A stretch of DNA of 33,755 nt from a virus, in IMG/VR virus record IMGVR_UViG_3300009504_000019, positions 1 to 33,755 of that record. The stretch is one strand, 5' to 3'. Within the stretch, counting starts at the first letter, position 1, and each line of letters starts with the position of its first letter. A program made the translations under genes and the position numbers. Below the pieces are notes generated by a model, which was not told where the DNA came from, did no database searches, and saw only the letters and a program-made list of their open reading frames with translations. Shown in pieces: positions 4,439 through 29,034 of the stretch.

Positions 4439-4469
4439 AGACAGGCTCAGTGATGGGCTTGTCTTTTTT
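4439..4469 (+). terminator. intrinsic terminator of the rightward block, at the convergence point
   Basis: The stem AGACAGGC (4439-4446) pairs with GCTTGTCT (4457-4464) with one G-U wobble around a 10-base loop. It is followed by a T-run (T4464-T4469). This is a classic rho-independent terminator for rightward transcription. The left-running FkbM-like gene ends inside it (stop at 4449-4447). Read leftward the same stem is followed only by TATTAGATTT, so it may work weakly in that direction too. Confidence 0.85.
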
Positions 4470-5097
4470 CGTTTATAGGCGTGAACTCTACATCAAACCT
4501 ATTCAACCTATGGACCTGATACCCTTTTCCTGAAAGAAAGGCTATGAGTAGATTCAGGTAGTCTTGCCGGTCGCCATATTCAATAGTCAAGAATCTGAAG
4601 GTTGTAACGTTCCAGTCGATGCCTTTCAATGCTTCTAACTCTGCCCCTTCAATATCAATAGAAGCGTAGTCAAAGTCGTGGCGTCCAGGTCCTAATAGAT
4701 AGGCCAAGGTTGCCGGGCGAACCTTATAGACGTTTCTTGTTTTGAATTCTTTGGCAAAGTAATCCGCGTTATGAGGCAGTCCAGCAATCCGACTAAGCAG
4801 GTTGTCGCCGTTGCCGGGGTACTCGTATTCGACGTCCTGTGTAGAGCTCCAGACGACGGCTTCTAAGGTTACCGAGTTGGGGCGGTTGCGGTGGCAAGCC
4901 ATAGCTAAGACAGGATTAGCCTCTACCAAAATGCCGGACCACCCAAGCTCTTGTTCTAGGGTTAACGTGTTAGAGGTTTCTATGCCATCGTAGGCACCAA
5001 CTTCAAGAAAGTATCCTGGACCTACAAAGTCTTTCCAGGTCGGTAGAATGCTTTCAATAAAGTATTTATCTTGTTCAATTTGGCTGTGGTATTTCAT
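4447..5097 (-). CDS. FkbM-type SAM-dependent methyltransferase
   Basis: The N-terminus has the FkbM-family layout: SQIEQDKYF, then FLEVGAYDG (30-38, the SAM-binding motif I), then SNTLTLEQELGWSGILVEANP (42-62). Asp-containing YASIDIEGAELEAL later in the protein is also typical. Family members transfer methyl groups to oxygen on sugars or other small molecules, and they are frequent in polysaccharide and glycan clusters. At 216 residues it is a complete, stand-alone domain. Its start overlaps the phosphoribosyltransferase-HAD gene by 4 bases (ATGA). As the last gene of the leftward operon it probably caps or decorates the glycan built by its neighbours; the acceptor is unknown. Confidence 0.85.
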   Translation of the reverse strand: MKYHSQIEQDKYFIESILPTWKDFVGPGYFLEVGAYDGIETSNTLTLEQELGWSGILVEANPVLAMACHRNRPNSVTLEAVVWSSTQDVEYEYPGNGDNLLSRIAGLPHNADYFAKEFKTRNVYKVRPATLAYLLGPGRHDFDYASIDIEGAELEALKGIDWNVTTFRFLTIEYGDRQDYLNLLIAFLSGKGYQVHRLNRFDVEFTPINEKRQAHH

Positions 5098-5996
5098 GGA
5101 ATAAATACTTTCTTAGCGTTGGGGCACATAACAGGGATATTTCCCACCTTAGCAATTTGTGGAGCCTGTCGGGGATCGCTCTCAACATAGAGCTGGAGGT
5201 TGAGTTGTTTGCAGACAGAACCTTTCCATTCACCCATAAGATGTTTTCTACGTTCTGCTAAGGATTCCCATGGACCCATAACTAACTTACGAAATTGAAT
5301 TTTATGGGTAGCTAACCAAGCCTCTGTCTGTGGCCGATACTTTTCTAACCGAGCGGTGATAATGGCCCCGCATACACCACCCCGATATAAGTAGAGCGGT
5401 GGAGTGGTTGTAAGGAATTGTAAATAACGTTCGCCGTCATCGTCTGCTTCACGACTGCAGTCTGGACAGAATAAACCGTCTATATCAAATCCGGTTGGAT
5501 ACTTGCATAATAGATTTGAACCGAACATATGCCACATAAAATAATGAGGCAAAGGTAAATCTATGGCTACAAGATCTACGCTAGAAGCTCCAGTAGGAGT
5601 GGAGTAGACAGCGGCGGTTCCTATGATTCTTGGATCTGGAGTGGCAGAGACTGCTCGTTTAATAGACCAACCGCTGTTGATAGAATCCTCAATGACAACA
5701 ATCTTAGTATGAGGATAGTTGATATAAGAACGGACTCGGCGTCCTCCACCTAACTTGTTGAGTTCGCCTTCGTAGCATTCATAAAGAGGTAGTCCAAGAT
5801 TGGTAGCCACATGACTCGCCGCTAACATGCCACTTCGGGGCACACCTGCGATGGCGTCACATTGTGGCCAACGTTGGGCAATTAATCCGGCGAGCTTAAT
5901 AGAGTCTCTGGCTAGATCTTGGTTATCTAGAATCTGAACTCCATTTAATTGGGTAGCACGAAGACGACGAGGAACAACACGGTTGACAGGAATCAT
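5094..5996 (-). CDS. phosphoribosyltransferase-HAD phosphatase fusion
   Basis: Two domains are visible in 300 residues. Residues about 30-150 form a type I phosphoribosyltransferase with the PRPP loop VIEDSINSG (101-109) and an upstream IAGVPRSGM segment. Residues about 165-300 form a HAD-superfamily phosphatase: motif I FDIDG (D171, D173), motif II Thr in IITAR (T214), and motif IV ESDPRQA (D274). Such pairing suits transfer of a 5-phosphoribosyl group from PRPP followed by removal of the phosphate. That two-step logic is established for ribofuranose in some bacterial polysaccharides and for ribosylation in butirosin biosynthesis. Its position between UDP-galactopyranose mutase and a methyltransferase supports a sugar role. 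Nucleotide salvage is the alternative. It overlaps both neighbours by 4 bases. Confidence 0.75.
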   Translation of the reverse strand: MIPVNRVVPRRLRATQLNGVQILDNQDLARDSIKLAGLIAQRWPQCDAIAGVPRSGMLAASHVATNLGLPLYECYEGELNKLGGGRRVRSYINYPHTKIVVIEDSINSGWSIKRAVSATPDPRIIGTAAVYSTPTGASSVDLVAIDLPLPHYFMWHMFGSNLLCKYPTGFDIDGLFCPDCSREADDDGERYLQFLTTTPPLYLYRGGVCGAIITARLEKYRPQTEAWLATHKIQFRKLVMGPWESLAERRKHLMGEWKGSVCKQLNLQLYVESDPRQAPQIAKVGNIPVMCPNAKKVFIP

Positions 5997-7108
5997 ATTG
6001 AAATCCGGGGGGAAGATTCTACAAACCTAGAACAGAAACCTAATGCTGCCCCAATGGCTTGGTCCATATCATAGTAACGATAATTTCCAAGCCTACCACC
6101 TAGATAAACGTCGTCGTCTGATTCAATCAGAACTCGGTATTTCTTATGAAGAATTAGATTTCGTTTAGTTGCTATGGGATAGAAAGGTTCTAGGCCCCGA
6201 TACCATTGTTGAGGAATTTCCTTAGTGACAATTGTTTTGTCTCTTTGGAGTTTTAAGAAATGGCTGTGCTCTATGCTTCTAGTATGTGAAGTAAGAAGAT
6301 CGCAAGAATTGATAATAGCGTTGCCTTGTAGATTTGAAACGTTGTGCGTTGTATGTTCAAACCTTAAAGAGCGGTATTCCAATTCGCCAAATCTGTAATC
6401 TAAGAATTCATCTGGAGGTCCGGTATAGATGAGATGCCGAGCCCCTTTCTTCCAGGAAGTCTTATCAAATGATTCGTTGAGCTTGATAGTTATCTTTGGG
6501 TGGTACAGCATATTCTCAACCATCGCCGTGTATCCATATAGAGGAACACCTTGGTAGAGGGCTGAGTAGTAGTTGTCGTCGTACGTTAATCGGATTGGTA
6601 TTCTTTTTAGAATTGAGGCCGGTAAGGTTCTTGGTTCACAGCCCCATTGTTTCTTCGTGTACCCATAGATCAAGGTTAGGTAGAGTTCGGGGCCTAAAGT
6701 AGCTAAGGCCCACTCTTCGAGGTTTTGGGGATCTTGGATGTTTAACCTCTCCCGCTTTAGTCGCTCTGTGGCTTCCTGTGGCGTCCGAACGCCCCATAGC
6801 TCGTACAAAGTATGGAGGTTAATGGGGAGAGAGAACAGGCGATTCCTGTAGACTGCTTTAACCCGGTTAACAAAAGGGCTAAAGGTTGCAAATTGGTTAA
6901 CATAGGCCCAAACCTTTTCACTATTGGTATGGAAAACATGGGGACCGTATTCATGGACCTGGATGCCATCCTGATTTGAGGTATGGCAATTTCCGGCAAG
7001 ATGGCTTCGGCGGTCAATAATAAGAACCGATTGTCCGGCCTGAGCTAACTGTTGGGCACACGTAGCTCCGTAGATTCCGGTACCAACAATCATCCAATCA
7101 TATCTCAT
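5993..7108 (-). CDS. glf: UDP-galactopyranose mutase
   Basis: This flavoenzyme interconverts UDP-galactopyranose and UDP-galactofuranose, the donor for galactofuranose in glycans. All family landmarks are present. The FAD-binding GTGIYGA motif is at the N-terminus, followed by VHEYGPHVFHT, the PINLHTLYELWG segment, YGYTKKQWG, the GYTAMVENML helix, GELEYRSLRFE and the C-terminal GRLGNYRYYDMDQAIGAAL. The length (371 residues) is the usual bacterial one, and no key region is missing, so the enzyme is probably active in the cytoplasm. It overlaps its upstream and downstream genes by 4 bases each. The base composition around it is AT-rich compared with the capsid and fibre genes, which hints at separate acquisition. 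Confidence 0.95.
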   Translation of the reverse strand: MRYDWMIVGTGIYGATCAQQLAQAGQSVLIIDRRSHLAGNCHTSNQDGIQVHEYGPHVFHTNSEKVWAYVNQFATFSPFVNRVKAVYRNRLFSLPINLHTLYELWGVRTPQEATERLKRERLNIQDPQNLEEWALATLGPELYLTLIYGYTKKQWGCEPRTLPASILKRIPIRLTYDDNYYSALYQGVPLYGYTAMVENMLYHPKITIKLNESFDKTSWKKGARHLIYTGPPDEFLDYRFGELEYRSLRFEHTTHNVSNLQGNAIINSCDLLTSHTRSIEHSHFLKLQRDKTIVTKEIPQQWYRGLEPFYPIATKRNLILHKKYRVLIESDDDVYLGGRLGNYRYYDMDQAIGAALGFCSRFVESSPRISI

Positions 7109-7992
7109 TTAATCTTTCCTGGATAAATAGCTGGACCCATTAGAATCGCATGCCACATTCCTTCTATGGACCAAGCGTCAATCGGAGTAGTGAATTGTTT
7201 GTATTCTGGTCCTTGGCTGTCTAGTGCCACAAGTAACCGAACGTAGAATTCTCTTGAGCGATGCAAAATGTTTTCTTTTGGAATTGCCCACATTGCTCCG
7301 TATCCAAAGTAGTAAGGAACCGGCAAAGGGCAATCAAACACTTCTTCCCAAGCTTCTTCAAACCAACGTAAGTTTGATTTGGGATTCCGAGAACCAAAAT
7401 GCATAAAGAGTCCATAGCGAATTTCATAGGGACCAACCTTAATGACTAAGTCCTTATCCTTAATATTCTGTTTTGGAAAGTGTGGACTGTAGTAAGGAGT
7501 TAGACTTGTCGGAATCGTATGTTTGAGTTGGAGTAGTCCAAACAAATCAGGGGCGTGGAATAAGGCATTGCCCTGAACGGTAAAGGTTACGTCGGCCAAA
7601 GAATCATAGTTCTCAACTATATGAGTTAAGAAGGCATGGGCTTCTCGTCCAACGTTGGGCAGTTGAGTAACGTGTACTCGTGGGTCGCCGATGTCTTGGT
7701 AGTCGTTACCTTTGTTGTAGATGGTAATGCGATCTATGTTTCTTGGGGTACCTAAGATCCAAGTCAAAGATTCGTTGTATCGTGCAACTACTAATTCTGC
7801 TTTAAGGTTTGGTCTAATATGTTTTCCTTGATTTTTACTTTTGATTTCAGCTTCTTCTTGTTGAAGATCGATTTTGAGTAAGTCTAAAGCAGGTTGAAAA
7901 CAATCTATTGGAAAGTTTGAAGTAGTCCGATCCATAAGGATTTTATCGTCTATTAGTTCAAATCGAACTGTCATTGTTTTGAGGGGTTTCAT
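7105..7992 (-). CDS. DUF3431 family protein, glycosyltransferase-like
   Basis: Family features are the N-terminal VVARYNESLTWI, then ITIYNKG, then LPNVGREAHAFLTHIVENY and TFTVQGNALFH. These match DUF3431, a domain widespread in polysaccharide clusters and predicted to be glycosyltransferase-like; its reaction is not established to my knowledge. The protein is 295 residues and appears soluble. The start is uncertain: ATG at 7992 overlaps the upstream gene by 35 bases, and ATG at 7974 overlaps by 17; neither has a clear Shine-Dalgarno. Its end overlaps the mutase start by 4 bases. In this operon it probably adds a sugar to the same glycan as its neighbours. Confidence 0.75.
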   Translation of the reverse strand: MKPLKTMTVRFELIDDKILMDRTTSNFPIDCFQPALDLLKIDLQQEEAEIKSKNQGKHIRPNLKAELVVARYNESLTWILGTPRNIDRITIYNKGNDYQDIGDPRVHVTQLPNVGREAHAFLTHIVENYDSLADVTFTVQGNALFHAPDLFGLLQLKHTIPTSLTPYYSPHFPKQNIKDKDLVIKVGPYEIRYGLFMHFGSRNPKSNLRWFEEAWEEVFDCPLPVPYYFGYGAMWAIPKENILHRSREFYVRLLVALDSQGPEYKQFTTPIDAWSIEGMWHAILMGPAIYPGKIK

Positions 7993-9157
7993 TTAGATTT
8001 TCTGAAGGAAGGGCTTCACCGCAAAACCATACAACATAATCAAGTTGAGGCATCCGAATTTTACGGAGTTTATTTGTAGGAATATCAGCGTCAGTAATTT
8101 CACACCAATCCCATTGTTTTCTTAAGATATTGTTTTTGAATACTTGTAAGTTTGGGGCATAGTCGTGAGCCATAACAATATCGCCCGGTTTTGCGATGTT
8201 TGCTATGATTTTTATTTCTTTTCGTTTATTGCCGCCATCACAAAGAATAAGGGTTCTGCCAGGACTAGTAATGAATTCTGTGGTATCTGGTAGGTTGTCT
8301 TTGGTCAATGGGTCTGTGACTTTCCAGTCTATATTGAATTTGGTTAGAACGTTTCGTTTTGGACAAGGTTTGATGTCGTGGGTTCTGATTGGGATATCGG
8401 GAGCTAGGTCCCGTAGCATTAAAGTGAATCCGCCTCCGGCTGTACCAATTTCAAGAATTCGTATGGGTGGGTATTTGGCAAGTAGATTGATGAAAGCGGA
8501 TTGAACTTTAGGATGTTGTTGAATTGGTAGCCCGCGATAGATTCCCCGTCCTCTGCGGATCTTAGTCATGACTATTCCATTGGATCGCCAATGTTCTTTG
8601 GATGCTTTTGTATGCCAAAAGTGAAAGAGAGGTCCGGCTAATCTAATATGAGGAATCCGAGAAAGAAATTCGTTGTCTTCAAATCCCCATCCTTTAAAAC
8701 TTTCATTCATTTGATATTTGAGAAATAGATCAGATCGGACAATCCACATGCCTCCTGGAGCGGGTTTAGTTCTTCGATTTCGAAACATACGACCAGAGGG
8801 CCGAGCCTTTGGTGAAGTCTTTAGAACCTTAGTAGATTCTATAGATGTCATTCTACAGACACTATTATGTGGAATATAAAGAAAATCATACTGTTCAGCT
8901 AACCGGATTGCATGTCGTAAAGACCAATCGCAAATGAAAACGTCTGCGTCGGCGATCACACAAATATGATTCGGAAATTGTTCAATTGCAGTATTGAGGA
9001 TTTTTGATTTGTTAAATGGTCCTATTGTTTTGTCTGTTTCTATGTGAACTGCTTCTGCTCCAAAGCGGTGGGTGTAATATTTCACTAACCATTCAAATCC
9101 AGCTTTGCGATCAGGACTAGGACGCCAAGGAATAATGATTTTAACAGGTAATGTCAT
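7958..9157 (-). CDS. glycosyltransferase (GT-A) fused to a SAM methyltransferase
   Basis: The N-terminal half is a GT-A glycosyltransferase: an IIIPWRP start, the metal-binding D-x-D in ADADVF (D70, D72), then GGMWIVRSDLF (135-145) and GWGFEDNEF (156-164). That order is typical of galactosyl- and hexosaminyltransferases of the chondroitin-polymerase/GT7 C-terminal type. The second half (about 215-399) is a class I methyltransferase with motif I LEIGTAGGGF (235-244), an acidic ILCDGGN strand (304-310) and MAHDYAP (329-335), as in cephalosporin-hydroxylase-like or Methyltransf_24 proteins. One polypeptide could add a sugar and methylate it. The start overlaps the previous gene by 4 bases. Confidence 0.82.
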   Translation of the reverse strand: MTLPVKIIIPWRPSPDRKAGFEWLVKYYTHRFGAEAVHIETDKTIGPFNKSKILNTAIEQFPNHICVIADADVFICDWSLRHAIRLAEQYDFLYIPHNSVCRMTSIESTKVLKTSPKARPSGRMFRNRRTKPAPGGMWIVRSDLFLKYQMNESFKGWGFEDNEFLSRIPHIRLAGPLFHFWHTKASKEHWRSNGIVMTKIRRGRGIYRGLPIQQHPKVQSAFINLLAKYPPIRILEIGTAGGGFTLMLRDLAPDIPIRTHDIKPCPKRNVLTKFNIDWKVTDPLTKDNLPDTTEFITSPGRTLILCDGGNKRKEIKIIANIAKPGDIVMAHDYAPNLQVFKNNILRKQWDWCEITDADIPTNKLRKIRMPQLDYVVWFCGEALPSENLNETPQNNDSSI

Positions 9158-10377
9158 TTTTCTACTGAACTTGGTTTATTGAATTGTTCTTGTAAGAAGG
9201 TTTCTACTGCCCCTTTGTATTGTGAATCTGTATGATTCAAAACTTTATGAGGCGTCTTAATTATTTTGTGCTTACTAGCTACTCGTAAGTAGCGTCGTCC
9301 CCAATCTTCTGCGATACCTGAAAGATTGGAATTAAGATACAAACATTCCCAATTTCTATACTGACCAGTCATTAGGTTTAAATCTTTTACCATTTGTAGA
9401 AAAGATTCAGAAATAATAGGTTGAGGCAGATGAGAAGCGAAGTCATATGTGGGTCTGTTGTTAGTAAATAGCCACCGATAGGCATGGAGGCGTGTCTTGC
9501 CCCACGCATTCTTAGGCTTCCACTTTTTGAAACGTTCTTGGCTTACATGTCGGACGTATTTGGGAACAGTTGCTTCTTGAACTGTAAATGGTTTGATCCA
9601 ATAGATATCATCCATCATCCAGACGTACTGTTCTAACTGATTTGCCGCTGTTAGAAGCTTATGATAACAGTCTCGGAAAGCATGAAACTCTTGCCGTTTG
9701 ATTCTTGGGCAATGGATCATTTCTCCGACGTACCAATCAGGCTGATCTCCAACCACAAGTATCCGAGCGTTTGGATGGTGGTGTAAGACAGACCGGATAG
9801 AGTATTTAAGCTCATCGCCTACGGCTCCACCTGCCCAATACGTCCATACAAAGGGCCAATGTTTAATTCCTACGGCATCTCGAGTTTGGTATTCGTGAAT
9901 TGCCCTAAAGATTCCTAGTTCAACCTGCTCTTGGGTAACTTCTGGAAACTTTTTACGAATTGAGTTATAGAACCAACGAGTTAATTTGTCTTTATTTTCT
10001 AAACACTTAGCATCAGTCCAACGATTCATCGCTGATATGTAATCTTTACAGGCACATCCATCCTCTGGATTAGCCCAAGCGTTATTCTTGACAAGGATAT
10101 TTCCAATACCGTCCTTAGCTAAATCTATTGAAATATCTCTTTGCAATTCTTCAACTTCTTTTAATCTTTCTTGTATATTCTCTGGATAAAGATGTTGATA
10201 AGGTTGTCCTAGCTTTTGTAAAGTGATTCTAGCGAGACCAATCGTCACAAGGTTTTCAGTTTGTGGATTTGGTTGCTCTTTGCAAGCCTTACAGGATTGG
10301 GAATTGGTCGGAATAGATTGTTTGGCAAGAAGAGTAGCTACGGAACAATTTCCGTCAGTTAAATGAGGGCAAGGCAT
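9154..10377 (-). CDS. glycosyltransferase-like protein with Cys-rich N-terminal domains
   Basis: Three parts are seen in 407 residues. Residues 1-35 hold a small Cys cluster (C3, C11, C29, C32) that could bind a metal ion. Residues about 98-145 carry a second Cys motif (GCACKDYISAMNRW, then C125), a short domain I believe recurs in phage and environmental bacterial proteins. From about 172 on the sequence resembles capsular-polysaccharide or stealth-type glycosyltransferases: FVWTYWAGGAVGDELKYSIRSVLHHHP, ILVVGDQPDW, then WMMDDIYWIKPF with the acidic pair D256/D257. It probably transfers a sugar or sugar phosphate. It directly follows the Ser-rich protein gene with a 36-base gap and heads the sugar block. 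Confidence 0.65.
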   Translation of the reverse strand: MPCPHLTDGNCSVATLLAKQSIPTNSQSCKACKEQPNPQTENLVTIGLARITLQKLGQPYQHLYPENIQERLKEVEELQRDISIDLAKDGIGNILVKNNAWANPEDGCACKDYISAMNRWTDAKCLENKDKLTRWFYNSIRKKFPEVTQEQVELGIFRAIHEYQTRDAVGIKHWPFVWTYWAGGAVGDELKYSIRSVLHHHPNARILVVGDQPDWYVGEMIHCPRIKRQEFHAFRDCYHKLLTAANQLEQYVWMMDDIYWIKPFTVQEATVPKYVRHVSQERFKKWKPKNAWGKTRLHAYRWLFTNNRPTYDFASHLPQPIISESFLQMVKDLNLMTGQYRNWECLYLNSNLSGIAEDWGRRYLRVASKHKIIKTPHKVLNHTDSQYKGAVETFLQEQFNKPSSVEK

Positions 10378-10413
10378 GATAATAGTTAGATCATCGGGGG
10401 AAGAATCAGTTAA

Positions 10414-11253
10414 CTAGAGTCCGCAAGTGTTTATGATTTGTATCCAATTGGTACCATCATATTCATATACACAATCTCCCGGACAAGTTGTAAGTGTAAT
10501 GTCATGGTTACAGAAAGCTGTAAAGATTTGACCTGGAAAAATACCGGCTCCAGGGGCACCCGCACACTTACAATCTGGATCGGGTGGTTCTGATGGTGTT
10601 GAATATGAACTTGAGTAGCTTGCTGATTCTGAAGAAAAAGAAATAGATTGGCTTAAAGATTCGCTAGAGGAAGTGCTTTGGGAAACACTAGAAGAAACAC
10701 TTTGAGATTGGCTAGATGAAACGCTTTCGGAAATACTAGAAGAGGGGATAGATTCGCTATAACTAATAGACGGATCACTATATGAAATTGATTCACTTAA
10801 AGACTCACTTAAAGAACTGCTAACAGATTCACTTATAGATTCACTTAAAGAACTACTAACAGACTGGCTTTCTGAACTGCTGACAGATTCACTTAAAGAA
10901 CTACTTATAGATTCACTAGAAGAAACACTTTTGGATTCACTAGAACTTAATGATTCACTAAGAGAACTACTTAATGATTCACTAAGAGAACTACTTAATG
11001 ACTCACTTGACGATACCGAAACACTAAGTGATTCGCTTGACGACAAGCTACTACTCGGTTCGCTCGACGAATACGACGATGAGACACTAAGGGATTCTGA
11101 CGAAGATTGTGACTCTGAACTGCTTTGCGAACTCGAGGAACTGCTAAAGGAACTGGAGGAGCTACTACTACTTGACGAAGAACTGCTACTACTAGAAGAG
11201 CTGCTTCCCAGACAACAGGTACAATCCCCTGAGCGTGGACCATGCCATCCCAT
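10414..11253 (-). CDS. Ser-rich mucin-like virion protein with Cys-rich ends
   Basis: This 279-residue protein begins with a short Cys-containing segment (GDCTCCLG), then a nearly pure poly-Ser stretch, and then about 150 residues of SES, SQS and SVSSS repeats. It ends in a 55-residue domain with six Cys residues (CKCAG, then TAFC, TTC, GDC, NTC) that probably forms disulphides or binds metal. The Ser tract resembles glycosylated Ser-rich repeat adhesins and mucins, although such tracts also act as plain linkers in phage tail proteins. The start directly abuts the stop of the upstream tail gene (TAAATG), so it belongs to the tail-tip group. The next genes downstream are all sugar enzymes, which makes it a natural candidate for O-glycosylation. 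Confidence 0.7.
   Translation of the reverse strand: MGWHGPRSGDCTCCLGSSSSSSSSSSSSSSSSSSSFSSSSSSQSSSESQSSSESLSVSSSYSSSEPSSSLSSSESLSVSVSSSESLSSSLSESLSSSLSESLSSSESKSVSSSESISSSLSESVSSSESQSVSSSLSESISESVSSSLSESLSESISYSDPSISYSESIPSSSISESVSSSQSQSVSSSVSQSTSSSESLSQSISFSSESASYSSSYSTPSEPPDPDCKCAGAPGAGIFPGQIFTAFCNHDITLTTCPGDCVYEYDGTNWIQIINTCGL
10420..11220 (-). repeat. low-complexity Ser codon tract
   Basis: Within the Ser-rich gene the DNA is a degenerate triplet repeat of AGT, AGC and TCN codons, with regularly placed GAA (Glu) and CAA/CAG (Gln) codons. Mixed use of two unrelated Ser codon families shows that protein composition, not DNA slippage alone, has been kept. The 5' end (about 11150-11215) is the purest part and is likely to vary in length between relatives. 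The C-terminal Cys domain lies outside the tract. Confidence 0.7.
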
Positions 11254-11889
11254 TTAGATACCTTTGGGGCAGGGGGCTTGTATTGCATAGTATTTTCCGT
11301 CTTGGAGATTACATAAACCCTTGTCTTCTTCTAGTAAACCAATAGCCCATCCGCTTGGATCATATAGATTGTAAGGATCCTCTCCTACTTGATCTCCAAA
11401 CACTTCTCCATTGAGTTTGTAAATTTCTGCTAAGGCTACCCCTTCGCCCATATCTTCAACCAATTTGAATCCGAAGATTACATCGGAGGTTGGAATAAAG
11501 AAATACTGACCATGTTGAAGAGTAATCCAGACCTTAGTACTGTCTTCGATATACTGATTTGTGAAATCATGGGCTAGACGATACTGTGGAGGGTCGTAAG
11601 GTACGACAGATAGGGATTGCTGCCCCACTGCTTCGGCATAAACCGGACGACCTAATTTGACCCAGAAAGTATTAGCTGGACGATCTGGATAAAGGGCTGA
11701 ACTTTCAATTTCCGAAATGGGGTCGTAGCCGACTGTAATTCCGGCTCGTACGTCTTTGGCTGAAACCGAAGAATAATTACGGATTGCCTGTGCTACCGCT
11801 TGGTCAATTAAAGCGGGAACCCGATTTCGCCATTGTTGGAGTTCTCGTATGGCCTTTTCTGACCAAATAAAGCCTTCGTTACGTGTCAT
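11254..11889 (-). CDS. tail-tip or tail-associated protein, 211 aa
   Basis: The family is unknown to me, but the place is clear: it lies between the tape-measure cluster and the Ser-rich protein, in the usual position of distal tail genes. The N-terminal 50 residues are helical (IRELQQWRNRVPALIDQAVAQAIRNY); the rest is beta-rich with many aromatic residues. It overlaps its upstream neighbour by 4 bases (ATGA) and abuts the Ser-rich gene. Two Cys near the end (C-x6-C-like spacing) are not a known motif. A structural role in the baseplate or tail tip is inferred from the context only. Confidence 0.5.
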   Translation of the reverse strand: MTRNEGFIWSEKAIRELQQWRNRVPALIDQAVAQAIRNYSSVSAKDVRAGITVGYDPISEIESSALYPDRPANTFWVKLGRPVYAEAVGQQSLSVVPYDPPQYRLAHDFTNQYIEDSTKVWITLQHGQYFFIPTSDVIFGFKLVEDMGEGVALAEIYKLNGEVFGDQVGEDPYNLYDPSGWAIGLLEEDKGLCNLQDGKYYAIQAPCPKGI

Positions 11890-12845
11890 GAAAACGGTCC
11901 AGGTAATGTAGTGGGCATTCCGGGGATACCAGCAAAATCAATCTCTCGTTCTACCTTGAAAATATTCCACTTCATATCACCAGTGTTTTCTGTGCCGTCA
12001 CAACTGAGTCTAACTGGTTCATTTAAAGGTACGTCATTATCGCCTGCTTTGGCTTCCTTAGAGGCAATGACTCCGGCTACCTTTAGAGGGGCTTTACCCT
12101 CATTAGGAAGAACAGTGTACCATCCTTCTAGACCGGCTAAATCAGATCCAGTACAAATGTTCGTTGTTGGATTTTTGACTCGTCTAATATGAAACTCGAA
12201 ATCGTTTTTGACGTAAGCCAACGGACCAGCGTAGGCTACACTCCATCGCCAAGAAGCGAGCTTAGCTTGTCGCTTTTCTAAGCCCCAAATTGCTACCTCA
12301 TTAACCTTACCAATCATTTGAGCTCGGAGCCCTAGATTGATGGTTGGAGTGTTATAGCTAATGGAGAGGCCGTCAGTGTTAGATTGGACTGTGGGTGGCT
12401 GTGGGTAGGGTTCGCCTGCCGTGTTAGCTATGGGAGCGTCATCCACGTCTCTAAATACGCTCTCGGTCTCTCCGATAAACGACCCGGCTATAACCGGAGG
12501 GTCACTTACCGGGTTGGACCTAGGATCTCCTTGGGATCTCTCCGACGTTGCTGTTGACCAAGTAACCGTGACCTGCCACTTAATACACTTCTCGAGTCCG
12601 CTGCCAAGATCATATAGAATTTGTTCTTGGGGGTCGGCAGAGGCACCATCTACAAAAGACCAAAGGTCGTATTCACCATACCAGTAATAGGCATTTCCAA
12701 AACCTGGAATTCCAGGGGCGTTCATTACTGCTAAAGAACCTTCAGCCAAAGAAGCAATGACTTGAAAGGTTGCTTTATACGTCCGATTGAATTTCTTATC
12801 TACACCACCAGAAGTCTTGAGTGGCTTAGCTATTCCGACAGTCAT
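11886..12845 (-). CDS. tail-tip or baseplate structural protein, 319 aa
   Basis: The gene follows the tape-measure gene at 10 bases, the usual place of distal tail and baseplate hub proteins. The product is beta-rich and full of Gly, Pro and aromatic residues (PGIPGFGNAYYWYGEYDLW), with no signal peptide and no membrane segment. I do not recognise the family. Its end overlaps the next gene by 4 bases, so the two proteins are probably made together and may form one tail-tip complex. The exact role cannot be read from the sequence. Confidence 0.55.
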   Translation of the reverse strand: MTVGIAKPLKTSGGVDKKFNRTYKATFQVIASLAEGSLAVMNAPGIPGFGNAYYWYGEYDLWSFVDGASADPQEQILYDLGSGLEKCIKWQVTVTWSTATSERSQGDPRSNPVSDPPVIAGSFIGETESVFRDVDDAPIANTAGEPYPQPPTVQSNTDGLSISYNTPTINLGLRAQMIGKVNEVAIWGLEKRQAKLASWRWSVAYAGPLAYVKNDFEFHIRRVKNPTTNICTGSDLAGLEGWYTVLPNEGKAPLKVAGVIASKEAKAGDNDVPLNEPVRLSCDGTENTGDMKWNIFKVEREIDFAGIPGMPTTLPGPFS

Positions 12846-18857: not shown

Positions 18858-20942
18858 TTAACCAGCAAGATAATAATAGTATTGCAACATCAATCCACCC
18901 GGTCCTGGTGTAACACCGACACCGTTAAGTAATCCTACGGCACCAATACTTCCTCCTCCAGAACGTTGAGAAAGCCCAGAACCTACAATTACACCAACAG
19001 CATCAATTAAACCTGATCCGCTGGATATTCGACTACCAACACCTACCAGGGCACCTACAACATCAATTGATCCTGAACCAGAATATTGAGTCGTACCCGA
19101 ACCAGATAGTATTCCAATAGCAAGGATCGAACCAGAACCCTTGTATGGAGTATTACTTACACCATTTAAGGAACCGACAGCATTGATATTTCCGGAACCG
19201 GATTGCTTTGAGGAGCCAGTACCGGCAAGCGATCCAACTGCATTGATAGTACCAAAACCGCTGGAACTTCCACCGCCAATACCAACAATCGATCCGACTG
19301 CGTTGATCGACCCACTACCATTTCTCTGGGTGAGTCCAACCCCTGTTAGTGCTCCGATAGCGTCGATCGAACCGGACCCAGATCGTTGGGTCAGTCCTAC
19401 GCCTGTCAACGTAGCAACTGCGGTGATTGTCCCTATGCCACCGCCAGTTGAATTACCAACACCGAATAACGTACCAATCGCATCGATAGTACCTGAACCG
19501 CTTCGGACAGTGCTTCCGACTCCCGTGAGCGTTCCTACTGCGTTTACATTGCCGGACCCACTTCGAGTAGTGGAACCCGTTCCAGTGAGCGTAGCAACCG
19601 CATTAATCGATCCATAACCGGAAGCAGGTGGAACTACCTCTGGTGCCTGCCCAACACCTGTTAAGGAAGCGACTGCGTTAATCGTCCCTGAACCGGATTG
19701 ATTAGCTAAGCCTACCCCTGTGATCGTAGCAACGGCGGATACCGTTCCCGATCCTCTCTGGGAGGAGAGGCCTGCACCCGTGATCGTTGCGATTGCGTTG
19801 ATCGAGCCAGAGCCAGACTGATTGGCTAAGCCCACTCCTGTCAGAGTAGCAATCGCATTGATTGAGCCGCTTCCAGATCGGACTGATAGGCCGAAACCTA
19901 TAATACTCCCAATCGCGTCAATCGAACCTGAACCGGATCGTTCTGTTGAACCGACACCAGTTAAGGTGCCGATTGCAGTAATCGTTCCTGAACCGCTCTT
20001 ATCGTTATTTGTAATCGCATAGACGGTATGATAAACGTCTTGATAGACTGTATCATAAACCGTCTCTGGATAAGGTTTGCTTCCTGTTCCTGCTAAGGTT
20101 GCTACAGCATTGATCGACCCACTACCAGCCTGAGTTGACAACCCAGAACCAGTTAATGAAGCAACCGCATTGATAGTACCGAAACCTTCTTTGGCAGAGA
20201 CTACTGGCGACTCGCCTGTCCCAGTCAAAGAGCCAATCGCATTGATCGACCCGCTACCCGATTGCGTTGCTAAGCCGGAGCCAACTAAAAAACCAATAGC
20301 GTTAATGGTCCCATTACCACTACGGGTTGATTCCCCTGAGCCTGATAACGTAGCAACAGCATTGACCGAACCGAAACCCTCATTAGGTTCGGCGGATACA
20401 GGAGCTTCACCTACCCCTGTTAGCGTCCCCACTCCATTGATACTACCGGAACCAGAGCGACTATCGTTGTAATCAGCATTCCATTCAATGGCCCCGACTT
20501 CAAGACTGGATCGGTTAGCCGGACCACCGCTACCTACACCGCCTTGTACCAATACTTCAACATCGGCACCCATATCCGATGCTAGAAGATTAGCATTAAA
20601 CGTGCCGGATAAAACAACTCCAGTCGTACTGCTTACTGTGGTTGATCCAACCAGCGTGGCAATCGATGTTCCATTTTCCCATAACTCGATTACCGCTGTG
20701 CAGTTGGTCGATAGATTGGTCTTACGAACCAACACCCTAACTTCCTGCAACCCGGCACCTAGGTTAAGGTGGCCGGGTGGATCAGCCATAGCAACCCGAA
20801 CTGAGGTTGCGTTATTATTCGTCGGACTAGCCTGTAACCACAAGCTATCCGGTGAATCTGGATCGTCCTGAATATCCGTAACGCTACCAGTCAAGCCGGA
20901 GCTTGCAATGATAGACGTTGGGGATAAACGGATGATTGGCAT
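18858..20942 (-). CDS. virion protein with 24 tandem 20-residue Gly-rich repeats
   Basis: The first about 160 residues form a beta-rich domain (VIELWENGTSIATLVGSTTV..., ending AIEWNADYN), of a kind I have seen at the start of phage tail or fibre proteins. From residue 163 to about 679 the chain consists of about 24 repeats near the consensus SGSGSINAVGTLTGVG plus four linker residues, so each unit takes 60 bases. Alternating hydrophobic and Gly residues suggest stacked beta strands, as in a solenoid or fibre shaft. One unit is followed by a Tyr-rich insertion. The tail (GGLMLQYYYYLAG) is aromatic. No signal peptide. It is probably a fibre or decoration protein; no enzymatic motif is seen. Confidence 0.7.
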   Translation of the reverse strand: MPIIRLSPTSIIASSGLTGSVTDIQDDPDSPDSLWLQASPTNNNATSVRVAMADPPGHLNLGAGLQEVRVLVRKTNLSTNCTAVIELWENGTSIATLVGSTTVSSTTGVVLSGTFNANLLASDMGADVEVLVQGGVGSGGPANRSSLEVGAIEWNADYNDSRSGSGSINGVGTLTGVGEAPVSAEPNEGFGSVNAVATLSGSGESTRSGNGTINAIGFLVGSGLATQSGSGSINAIGSLTGTGESPVVSAKEGFGTINAVASLTGSGLSTQAGSGSINAVATLAGTGSKPYPETVYDTVYQDVYHTVYAITNNDKSGSGTITAIGTLTGVGSTERSGSGSIDAIGSIIGFGLSVRSGSGSINAIATLTGVGLANQSGSGSINAIATITGAGLSSQRGSGTVSAVATITGVGLANQSGSGTINAVASLTGVGQAPEVVPPASGYGSINAVATLTGTGSTTRSGSGNVNAVGTLTGVGSTVRSGSGTIDAIGTLFGVGNSTGGGIGTITAVATLTGVGLTQRSGSGSIDAIGALTGVGLTQRNGSGSINAVGSIVGIGGGSSSGFGTINAVGSLAGTGSSKQSGSGNINAVGSLNGVSNTPYKGSGSILAIGILSGSGTTQYSGSGSIDVVGALVGVGSRISSGSGLIDAVGVIVGSGLSQRSGGGSIGAVGLLNGVGVTPGPGGLMLQYYYYLAG
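18906..20456 (-). repeat. about 24 tandem 60-bp coding repeats
   Basis: The units code for 20 residues each and stay in frame. Four of them are longer at the end (about 5-25 extra residues), with non-repeat linkers such as PEVVPPAS or the Tyr-rich insert at 20014-20067. The DNA copies differ strongly in synonymous positions while the Gly, Ile/Val, Ala and Leu positions are kept, so the repeats are old or have been diversified under protein-level selection. Confidence 0.85.
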
Positions 20943-26430: not shown

Positions 26431-27335
26431 TACTTTCTCATCTTCAAAACTAAGGAGCAGAAATCGTCATAAGACAGAAAGCCTTCATGCAAAACTGTCT
26501 TACCGTCTGTTGCAATTTCTACAGAAGGAGAAGGTAGTGTAGTCGTTGGCTGTGGATTGATACACCAACCCAAGGCTAATAATCTTGGGGCGACTTCTTC
26601 TTTCCAACGTTCACATGGAGGGCAGTTATCCCGAACGTATAAGATGATAGAAGAAGTAGATTGTACGATGTTAGGATCCAACCCTTCAATGATTTGTTTA
26701 ACTGCCTCGGTATAAGGAAGCTGAGCAGATTCAATAGCAGAATTTACAGGTACTCGCCAGAAGGTTAGCCAATTCTTATCTTGATCTTTTCGTTTCAATA
26801 AGACGTTACCTATGGCCTCTTGAACGCTCGCTGGCGTCTTCTCTGGAAGAGATAATAAGGCCTGTCTCATCTGTTCTGCGGTTGCCGGGTCGTCCATATA
26901 GTTGGTAGCCGCTCGGACTGCCTTAAAGATCGTCCTGTTCGCTTCTGGCGGAGGGTTAGGCTGTGTCGGCGGATTGGGCTCGGTAGGTGGTACCGGAGAC
27001 GTAGGAGGAGGATTTGGAGACGTAGGCGGGGTCCCTATCTGAACGTTGTGCCGTACCTGTGCGATGGCGGCATTGGTATCGGCCACAATCAGTTGAAAGG
27101 TATAGACACCAGGGGTACCAATGGCAAAGACAATCCGTTCGTCAATTACCAGATACCGGCCTTCAGCTTTAGGGTCTACAACCCACAAACGGTTATCTCC
27201 AATAGATTCTGAACTGTCAAGAATCACCAGATCGCCCATATTGGCTTTCTCGGGTGCCTTAATAACAGCTAGAACTTCTGCGTTTAATAACGTTGGCAAC
27301 AGGGCCAGAATACTAAGGATTAGAAATCGCATCAT
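26430..27335 (-). CDS. secreted PKD-like and thioredoxin-like protein
   Basis: The ATG at 27335 overlaps the subtilisin stop as ATGA, and from there the 301-residue protein begins with a signal peptide (MMRFLILSILALLPTLLNA, likely cut after A19). Residues about 22-100 resemble a PKD or Ig-like domain (GDLVILDSSES, then GVYTFQLIVAD). A Pro-rich linker spans 102-131. A helical part follows, and then a thioredoxin-like domain with a C-P-P-C motif (C238, C241) after the strand IILYVRDN. It should act outside the cytoplasm. Possible roles are redox help for Cys-rich virion proteins or binding at the cell envelope. It is unusual in a late phage operon. Confidence 0.65.
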   Translation of the reverse strand: MMRFLILSILALLPTLLNAEVLAVIKAPEKANMGDLVILDSSESIGDNRLWVVDPKAEGRYLVIDERIVFAIGTPGVYTFQLIVADTNAAIAQVRHNVQIGTPPTSPNPPPTSPVPPTEPNPPTQPNPPPEANRTIFKAVRAATNYMDDPATAEQMRQALLSLPEKTPASVQEAIGNVLLKRKDQDKNWLTFWRVPVNSAIESAQLPYTEAVKQIIEGLDPNIVQSTSSIILYVRDNCPPCERWKEEVAPRLLALGWCINPQPTTTLPSPSVEIATDGKTVLHEGFLSYDDFCSLVLKMRK

Positions 27336-28270
27336 ACAAACTTTAGTTCGGGTTGAGTGAGTTCTTGAACGATCTTTCCGTAGTGAGGAATTCCTACACC
27401 CCAAATCGGATCGTGTCCATCAGGGCCTTTGTCTATGGCATTCTTTTTCCACCATGGACGCCAATCTTCAATTCCATTAAGACGAGCCATACCTGCCCGA
27501 GCCATACCCGAGCGAACGTTAGCACAAAGACCCGCAAGGAATGGACAAGACATACTTGTACCACTCATTGTCTTAGTGCCGTTCAGATTGATATTAGAAG
27601 TAGAAACAATAGCTGCCCCCGGAGTGACGATATCCATTTCACGTCCGGCTGAACTAAATGAAGCGATAGCGTCATTGCGATCACAGGCTCCTGAGCATCC
27701 ACATAAGAGATACCGGGCTGGATGGCCGATCGTATTGGTGGGTAAACGTTGTCCGGCATTTCCAGCCGAGGCTACGCAAAGAACCTTATGCTGATTGGCA
27801 TACTCTAGGGCTCGCAGCATAGGCTCGTATTCTCCACCGCCCCCAAGGCTCATAGAGATAATCGTTGCCCCTTCATCAACAGCATACCGGACTCCATTAG
27901 CGATTCCTGAAGAAGAGCCGCTGCCTCGGTTGCTAAGCACTTTCACATTGATGAGTTGAGCCTTAAGAGCTGCTCCAATGCCCTCACGACCAAGAGCGGT
28001 TCCCGCACAATGGGTACCATGTCCATGCCCATCTCGAGGAGATTCGCCACTAATGAAGGAACGTTCCTTAATAGGTGTTGGAAGCCACTTATGAGGATTG
28101 ACTCCAGTATCAAGGATAGCGATAGTTTCACCTTCGCCACCAAACCGGTCCCAAATTGTATCCCAGATTGCTTTGGGGAAATGATAAACCTCTGGAGCGG
28201 CCTGTAGGAAAAACTTATCACCCGGTTCTACTATAAGATCGGGCGGAAGATGCCAAATAGGATCGATCAT
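27332..28270 (-). CDS. subtilisin-family (S8) serine protease
   Basis: The full triad is visible: D54 in AILDTGVNP, H87 in GHGTHCAG and S239 in GTSMSCP; N171 in SAGNAG is the oxyanion residue. I choose the ATG at 28270, which overlaps the stop of the metalloprotease gene by 4 bases; the longer frame adds 21 residues of unlikely sequence. The 312-residue protein has no signal peptide and a short N-terminal segment before the catalytic domain. It lies well downstream of the capsid genes and is not of the usual prohead protease fold, so host entry, lysis or virion maturation are the options. Confidence 0.92.
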   Translation of the reverse strand: MIDPIWHLPPDLIVEPGDKFFLQAAPEVYHFPKAIWDTIWDRFGGEGETIAILDTGVNPHKWLPTPIKERSFISGESPRDGHGHGTHCAGTALGREGIGAALKAQLINVKVLSNRGSGSSSGIANGVRYAVDEGATIISMSLGGGGEYEPMLRALEYANQHKVLCVASAGNAGQRLPTNTIGHPARYLLCGCSGACDRNDAIASFSSAGREMDIVTPGAAIVSTSNINLNGTKTMSGTSMSCPFLAGLCANVRSGMARAGMARLNGIEDWRPWWKKNAIDKGPDGHDPIWGVGIPHYGKIVQELTQPELKFV

Positions 28271-29034
28271 TGTTGTTCCGGTTGTGGAATGGACCAGATA
28301 GGAGCGGTGATAATGGGCTGTCCGCTGAACCAAGGTTTAAGATACTTGTAAGAAGGATCTGTGAGCCAAATGTTCGGGGTGAAAGGGCTGTTCAATAGGG
28401 TCGGATTCATAACGCCCCCGCGACTATGTCCTAGACCCATATTGTGTCCAAATTCATGGCCCATTAGTTGAGCCAATTGATTGATCAGTTTTTCTAAACT
28501 GAAACTTGAACCATAACGATTGTCATACTTAGCCCAAATCTGTTGACCACACTTGGGGCCTCGGGGCACAATGGCAAGTCCGATCCAACCGGACCCACGT
28601 TGCCAAGTGACAATCGTATTGGCTTTTCGTTTTTCCTTAGTTTCAAAGAAAGCGATTCCAACGTTGACATAAGCTTCTTGAACTTTTCGCCAAGCTTCCT
28701 CAAAAGCATTTTCCCAATGATTCGGCATGCCTGTTCGGGTAAAGTAAACCGCGAACGCATGATTATTAGGGAACTCAGGATGGCAACCCGAAGGCCACGA
28801 CCCTGAGCCCGTTGCATCAATAGAAGTAGGTAGGATGTCGGGACACCTACATCTATCGATGTTGAAAGCTTCCTCTAGTGGTACAGAATCACTAAGATTC
28901 ATATACCAACGATAAGAGGCAATAGCCCCGTCTACCCGATCGTCGTGTATTGAAAGGGTTGATACCTCCGACCACTCAACATTCTGTAAGTGTCCATAAC
29001 GAATCAACTTTCTAATAATGAGTTCACGATCCAT
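28267..29034 (-). CDS. matrixin-like zinc metalloprotease with cysteine switch
   Basis: This 255-residue protein carries the metzincin zinc site HEFGHNMGLGH (193-203; H193, H197 and H203 bind zinc, E194 is the base) and a Met-turn in GGVMNP (M209). Upstream, residues 61-67 read RCRCPDI, which matches the RCGxPD cysteine switch that keeps matrix metalloproteases latent. The first about 60 residues resemble the small helical prodomain of that family (AIASYRWYMNL). So the enzyme is probably made as a zymogen. There is no signal peptide. AAAGG lies eight bases before the start. It forms a two-gene unit with the subtilisin by a 4-base overlap. Substrate unknown. Confidence 0.85.
   Translation of the reverse strand: MDRELIIRKLIRYGHLQNVEWSEVSTLSIHDDRVDGAIASYRWYMNLSDSVPLEEAFNIDRCRCPDILPTSIDATGSGSWPSGCHPEFPNNHAFAVYFTRTGMPNHWENAFEEAWRKVQEAYVNVGIAFFETKEKRKANTIVTWQRGSGWIGLAIVPRGPKCGQQIWAKYDNRYGSSFSLEKLINQLAQLMGHEFGHNMGLGHSRGGVMNPTLLNSPFTPNIWLTDPSYKYLKPWFSGQPIITAPIWSIPQPEQQ

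Follow-up and report, generated by a model that had tools for sequence, protein, structure and literature searches.

A candidate system for glycosylation of a serine-rich tail stalk in a probable planctomycete phage

Why would a tailed phage place a serine-rich (Ser-rich) gene directly behind its tail genes and follow it with six sugar enzymes? The question is raised by a linear virus record of 33,755 bases (IMG/VR record IMGVR_UViG_3300009504_000019; this whole stretch is called the window here), in which minus-strand genes run from capsid to tape measure, two tail-position genes, the Ser-rich gene and the enzymes. An earlier note, made from the letters of the window, had proposed a Ser-rich virion protein that accepts sugars from the neighbouring enzymes. 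We consider it probable that, with this locus, the phage glycosylates an appendage of its own tail: a Ser-rich distal-tail stalk would be O-glycosylated in the cytosol, with the N-terminal Cys-rich domain of the first enzyme, here named CysN, docking the transferase.

Pairing of the Ser-rich gene with the CysN-transferase

The pairing was examined by a scan of viral contigs with the pattern C-x-H-x5-C-x17-C-x2-C-x5-P-x3-N, which was taken from the CysN alignment and holds no serine information. There were 38 matches; each of the 33 that lay in frame scored as a CysN protein. Together with the window, locus L005 (loci carry the prefix L) and a prophage group, they make 17 clusters at 70% identity, and the CysN proteins are merely about 19-34% identical to that of the window. 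A Ser-rich open reading frame (ORF; at least 22 Ser in 40 residues) abuts CysN in 13 of the 17 clusters, at distances of -186 to +37 bp; in viral loci picked on other grounds, the background is 8 Ser-rich ORFs among 988. The abutting ORF of L375 is slightly under the threshold (21/40 Ser), in L382 a Ser/Thr-rich ORF lies at 182 bp from CysN, and in L364 and the L370 group the Ser-rich ORF is found 2.5-3.7 kb upstream. A transferase module mostly devoid of the Ser-rich gene, the case that the earlier note had set against its own proposal, was not seen: the gene abuts in 13 of the 17 clusters, and two more have a Ser- or Ser/Thr-rich neighbour.

The transferases linked to CysN vary. There is a Stealth-like fusion in the window and in L002-L005 and a GT9 fusion in L394, while a GT25 gene stands next to CysN in L364, L369, L373 and L380, a GT25-sulfotransferase in L355 and L375, and Mannosyl_trans3 with FkbM in L376 and L393; the CysN protein of the L392 group is extended by a part that matches no family. 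The conserved unit is acceptor plus CysN-transferase only, and the type of transferase swaps while the pair persists. The complete six-gene sugar block, previously regarded as a unit, dissolves on comparison: apart from the CysN-transferase, nothing recurs but the galactosyltransferase-type (GalT) gene, and that in three relatives. The recurrence of the pairing across many distantly related phages suggests an undescribed viral "mucin" system.

In the window, the Ser-rich protein contains 134 Ser among its 279 residues. All six Ser codons are in use (73 TCN, 61 AGY), with 29 TCN/AGY switches inside SS pairs; a few 12-36-bp tandem repeats lie inside the Ser tract, at 10676-11007. Because the codons are mixed and switch so frequently, it is selection on the encoded protein that keeps the tract, which is no slipped DNA repeat. 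Two Cys motifs were derived from 14 Ser-rich proteins partnered with CysN, and their test consisted of 82 other phage Ser-rich ORFs and of shuffled sequences. The Cys-clamped hairpin (C-x-[YFW]...W...C) occurs in 10 of the 14 partners and the second, PGE motif (C...G-x-[YF]-x-G-[EQ]...C) in 9; both are found in none of the 82 control ORFs, and shuffled sequences give 3.5% and 0.4%, respectively. The Ser tracts themselves differ freely (SSSS, SSG, SSSSEP, PSSSS) with Ser content retained. Judged by these motifs, the Ser-rich partners of CysN form a defined family with a shared, putatively Cys-clamped module. Peptide-seed searches with the full Ser-rich protein and the 319-aa tail protein of the window gave no confirmed viral relatives.

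Tail context, hosts and the transferase itself

The nearby tape-measure gene and the tail synteny in relatives support a tail context of the locus. Proteins of 260-303 aa hold the position of the 319-aa tail protein in L004, L005, L355, L358 and L376, and a 223-257-aa protein precedes the Ser-rich gene in L004, L376 and L393. The domain of the latter is also found as residues 1-180 in the poly-Ser proteins of prophages and in the Ser-rich protein of L394 (profile E values of 1e-24 to 1e-32; for the L004, L393 and L376 homologues against the fused prophage protein, BLAST 1e-12 to 1e-25 and profile 1e-29 to 1e-32). In prophages L355, L356 and L358, the tail protein is fused to the Ser tract and follows the tape measure and another tail protein. 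The 211-aa protein of the window matches this fused protein weakly by BLAST, with E of 0.002 in a very small database. That the two are fused in prophages and in L394 argues strongly for a physical association of Ser tract and tail protein. The idea of a Ser-rich virion protein serving as acceptor thus gains from the abutting pair and from the tail fusion; the sugar on its serines we still infer.

Close relatives of the transferase are encoded by four viral contigs (34-48% identity) as well as by Blastopirellula marina DSM 3645 (L008) and Ca. Laterigemmans baculatus. Because of the latter two, the window phage probably has planctomycete hosts. In L002, L003, L004 and L005, the transferase gene has an abutting Ser-rich ORF with Cys ends; the B. 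marina prophage has two Ser-rich ORFs 0.5-2 kb upstream of it, and the Ca. Laterigemmans copy is broken and stands without one. The gene after the transferase is a homologue of the window GalT in L002, L005 and L008, and FkbM is present in three other clusters, with different transferases. The UDP-galactopyranose mutase (UGM), DUF3431 and phosphoribosyltransferase-HAD-like (PRTase-HAD) genes were not met in the relatives. The N-terminal half alone (about 190 aa) occurs in many of 396 genomes of the order of B. marina. A host housekeeping gene was rejected, since the phylum search found the full-length CysN-transferase in 1 of 392 sampled planctomycete genomes.

Twelve stretches read from genomes of this order (L343-L354) come from related species and were counted as one group. 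In all 12, a long Ser-rich ORF is followed by CysN, and the large same-strand ORF behind it is of a single type; in L355, where scanned, it is GT25 plus sulfotransferase. The longer, prophage-like order is tape measure, 263-aa tail protein, poly-Ser protein of 775-948 aa, CysN, GT25-sulfotransferase and GT2. The GT25-sulfotransferase fusion stands behind the poly-Ser/CysN pair in both L355 and L375, and the prophage glycan of this group may be sulfated.

An alignment of 17 CysN sequences has nine invariant residues (C3, C11, C29, C32, P38, N42, G92, C108 and C110). The model of the domain is mainly helical (predicted local distance difference test, pLDDT, 88.6) and has no PDB match. The only family match of the Cys-rich transferase itself is phrog_7999 (6e-8). 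Its catalytic half carries the motifs GDELKYSIRS and WMMDDIYW, and the profile of this half matches L333 at 8.5e-7. L333 is a Stealth_CR2 protein (PF11380; 5.3e-10, 39.9 bits against a cut-off of 39.4) that matches structures of GlcNAc-1-phosphotransferase. Through such bridging relatives, the catalytic half shares the CR2-type DELKYSIRS...DD pattern with the Stealth enzymes and GNPTAB (PDB 7s6n, 7dxi). It differs from them in being fused to CysN and in scoring 13.6 bits directly against Stealth CR2, below the curated Pfam cut-off; the match of its profile to 7s6n is only 0.044. A sugar-1-phosphate is a possible first step for the window transferase. GT25 transferases of the collagen/lipopolysaccharide (LPS) type, which follow the CysN gene in several relatives, are replaced in the window by this Stealth-like enzyme. 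Microbacterium phage Cece matches the transferase half alone (24%) in unrelated context and was rejected as a relative of the locus.

Layout of the locus and its other enzymes

The coordinates are collected in Table 1. Gene content, order, overlaps and the single 36-bp gap, all described earlier, hold on the minus strand, as do the family calls of all genes, with the HAD half and the methyltransferase half as weak points. Overlaps of 4 bp join FkbM to PRTase, PRTase to UGM, UGM to DUF3431 and the glycosyltransferase-methyltransferase fusion (GT-MT) to the CysN-transferase. The overlap of DUF3431 and GT-MT is 35 bp. The gap separates the CysN-transferase from the Ser-rich gene, which abuts the upstream 211-aa gene directly.

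Table 1. Positions of the genes and domains of the locus in the window
Feature	Position	Strand	Basis or remark
Tail tape-measure protein, 835 aa	12856..15363	-	phrog_9483 1.8e-26; places locus in tail module
319-aa tail protein	11886..12845	-	position and synteny; no family match
211-aa distal-tail protein	11254..11889	-	synteny; counterpart by position of protein fused to Ser tract in prophages
Ser-rich protein, 279 aa, proposed acceptor	10414..11253	-	short Cys N-terminus, Ser stalk, Cys-clamped C-terminal module
Ser-rich stalk, residues 17-222	10588..11205	-	sequence; Ser codon mixing
Cys-clamped module, residues 223-279, CKCAGAPGAGIFPGQIFTAFC and CVYEYDGTNWIQIINTC	10417..10587	-	regex family test
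CysN-transferase, 407 aa	9154..10377	-	relatives L002-L005, L008, L009 at 34-48% identity
CysN domain, residues 1-165, proposed acceptor-recognition adaptor	9883..10377	-	alignment of 17 sequences; structure model
Stealth-like catalytic half, residues 166-407	9157..9882	-	bridged via L333
GalT-type glycosyltransferase fused to putative methyltransferase, 399 aa	7958..9157	-	phrog_1721 galactosyltransferase 7e-16
DUF3431 protein, 295 aa, probable transferase	7105..7992	-	PF11913 1.3e-13
UDP-galactopyranose mutase (UGM), 371 aa	5993..7108	-	TIGR00031 4e-107; PDB 1i8t
Phosphoribosyltransferase-HAD-like protein (PRTase-HAD), 300 aa	5094..5996	-	PF00156 at cut-off; phrog_415 5e-4
FkbM-family methyltransferase, 216 aa	4447..5097	-	PF05050 1.5e-16

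We are confident that the mutase is a UDP-galactopyranose mutase equivalog, judging from 358 bits against a cut-off of 304 for TIGR00031 and an end-to-end alignment with its best PDB match, 1i8t (6e-118). In PRTase-HAD, Pribosyltran matches at 5.3e-06 and the C-terminus is weakly HAD/PNK-like. The methyltransferase half of GT-MT gave weak matches as well (PF13489 at 0.016; PDB TrmI at 0.011). Similarity searches of the block at DNA and protein level gave no match to named phages.

Several other genes of the window are worth recording. A subtilase (27332-28333; PF00082 2.5e-38) overlaps its neighbour, a matrixin-like metallopeptidase (28267-29034), within the structural region; in the CysN relative L395, positions 300-1295 hold an ORF that by eye resembles a subtilase, and behind it lies a similar protein that looks secreted. 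A 694-aa protein at 18858-20942 consists of a degenerate SGSGSINAIGTLTGVG repeat, has no family match and is possibly a fibre. The major capsid candidate at 29791-30924 matches DUF6260 and encapsulin (Linocin_M18 2e-07).

Proposed mechanism, alternatives and meaning

We hypothesize that the Ser-rich protein is attached to the distal tail, where it would form a mucin-like, disordered stalk that small Cys-clamped modules close off. During assembly of the particle in the host cytosol, CysN would recognise the Cys module (or the Ser stalk) and hold the attached transferase there, and this transferase would add a first sugar, or sugar-1-phosphate, to serines. GalT, DUF3431 and UDP-galactofuranose provided by the mutase might then extend the chain, with FkbM and the methyltransferase half methylating it as a cap. 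The finished glycan might shield or solubilise the stalk, or tune binding to the host surface. What we infer here is that serines accept the sugar, in which order the reactions run and how the phage benefits. A protein substrate in the cytosol is plausible because none of the six block enzymes has a transmembrane stretch by sequence check.

A more ambitious version of this proposal is offered only tentatively. CysN would then be an acceptor-recognition domain of a new kind, through which exchangeable transferases (Stealth-like, GT9, GT25, GT25-sulfotransferase, mannosyltransferase) are brought to a single mucin scaffold of the virus. The result would be modular, phage-encoded, mucin-type glycosylation of distal-tail proteins in planctomycete phages. 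As the transferase of the window is Stealth-like, a start with a Ser-linked sugar-1-phosphate is possible there.

Several observations weigh against self-glycosylation of the tail. Firstly, the clusters share ancestry and so are not fully independent events. Secondly, the fold model of the full transferase is poor (pLDDT 58, too poor for a fold search), and its activity is a prediction. Thirdly, a mixed-codon Ser scan, whose 59 true Ser-rich loci served as control, found that poly-Ser virion segments are common in phages without nearby sugar genes, and at most 3 of 55 neighbours of other phage poly-Ser ORFs are GT-like. Since these ORFs rarely adjoin transferases, serine richness by itself predicts no glycosylation; the Cys module together with CysN does. 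Finally, the second half of CysN is also a stand-alone domain (282 viral loci by profile search) with a Ser/Thr-rich neighbour in just 8 of 80 loci, and its neighbours are Cys-rich proteins, most of which are not rich in Ser, with an obvious transferase often missing, so that CysN may primarily serve the Cys module. The second half alone was accordingly rejected as a marker of the system. A poly-AGY scan was set aside, as it mostly caught out-of-frame repeats. The other poly-Ser ORFs (L210-L329) are often pure C-terminal tails with baseplate, cement and capsid genes as neighbours.

The main rival is that the block alters host LPS or capsule for superinfection exclusion, with the Ser-rich gene next to it by chance of late expression. 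UGM, GalT, FkbM and DUF3431 are typical of surface-polysaccharide loci, and relatives carry PS_pyruv_trans and Capsule_synth-like genes. Yet Pfam families and the membrane-stretch check revealed no flippase, polymerase, GtrA, GtrB, Wzx or Wzy in the block, nor any membrane protein, the block has a late tail position, and the transferase is tied to the Ser-rich gene across diverse phages; we therefore find this rival unlikely. The same lack of membrane components speaks against a serotype-converting gtr or O-antigen locus.

Somewhat less probable still is a CysN that acts as an assembly or disulfide chaperone for Cys-clamped virion modules, with transferases acting elsewhere or only on the Cys-rich part. 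It would account for the stand-alone domain behind Cys-rich proteins in many phages without Ser tract; these proteins have 7.9% Cys, against 1.7% in other ORFs. The full CysN, with its first four-Cys half, is by contrast nearly always beside a Ser-rich partner and a transferase, and it is fused to two unrelated transferase folds. The stand-alone domain (L130-L209) reads G-x-GT-x-L...C-x-C...MDxxGxxWC...IVxWLxEEA and is usually located right behind the Cys-rich protein; the representatives examined match no Pfam family above cut-off. In the large phages L022 and L030, it adjoins Thr-rich (TTTTTPAP) proteins and is followed, by eye, by an FGE-like protein, in L022 with an additional GT2-like ORF; perhaps this is a Thr version of the Ser-stalk idea. 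In L143, L146 and L162, several large ORFs resembling glycosyltransferases by eye follow the domain (IFIQIASYRDPQL). That the Ser stalk is unmodified or carries a non-sugar group such as phosphate, the sugar genes acting on another virion protein, is very improbable: poly-Ser tails without GT neighbours exist and Stealth-type enzymes are able to transfer sugar-1-phosphate, but the block has no kinase and the Ser-rich gene and transferase are in abutting order.

Glycosylation of the tail stalk has partial parallels. Mycobacteriophages Che8, Corndog and Myrna modify their own capsid and tail proteins by phage-encoded glycosyltransferases (Freeman et al. 2023, as cited in PMC12363180 and PMC10955285), and the window shares with them transferases in or beside the structural module. 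The acceptors there are ordinary capsid and tail-tube proteins, whereas the system proposed here combines a dedicated stalk rich in Ser with CysN as adaptor and with transferases that are interchangeable. Linkage of the transferase gene to the proposed acceptor gene across relatives, by which virion glycosylation can be judged, is what the 13 abutting clusters display. The resemblance to Ser-rich repeat adhesin loci (e.g. PsrP, PMC5526788), suggested earlier, stands as far as a long Ser-rich protein lies beside presumed glycosyltransferases. It is an analogy of function, and membership was rejected: those loci have SecA2/SecY2, GtfA/GtfB, an LPxTG anchor and a signal peptide, whereas Pfam and NCBIfam gave no match to GtfA/GtfB or SecA2/SecY2 among the block genes, the Ser-rich protein has neither LPxTG anchor nor hydrophobic N-terminal stretch, and its location is the tail. 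In the literature searched, which was open-access only and makes an absence weak evidence, no account of a pairing between Ser-rich phage proteins and transferases was found; neither the family of Ser-rich stalks nor CysN as a domain nor the swapping of transferases behind the two appears to have been described there.

Phages of planctomycetes are little known. If our assumptions are true, then the locus represents virus-encoded, mucin-like glycosylation in which the acceptor can be recognised and the adaptor domain is one that Pfam does not name. It would provide a sequence signature to find glycosylated phage tails in metagenomes, and it might become a tool by which Ser stalks are O-glycosylated in E. 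coli in a targeted way. In planctomycetes, it would also allow a concrete test of whether the glycans on a phage tail act as a shield for the particle or influence how it binds its host.

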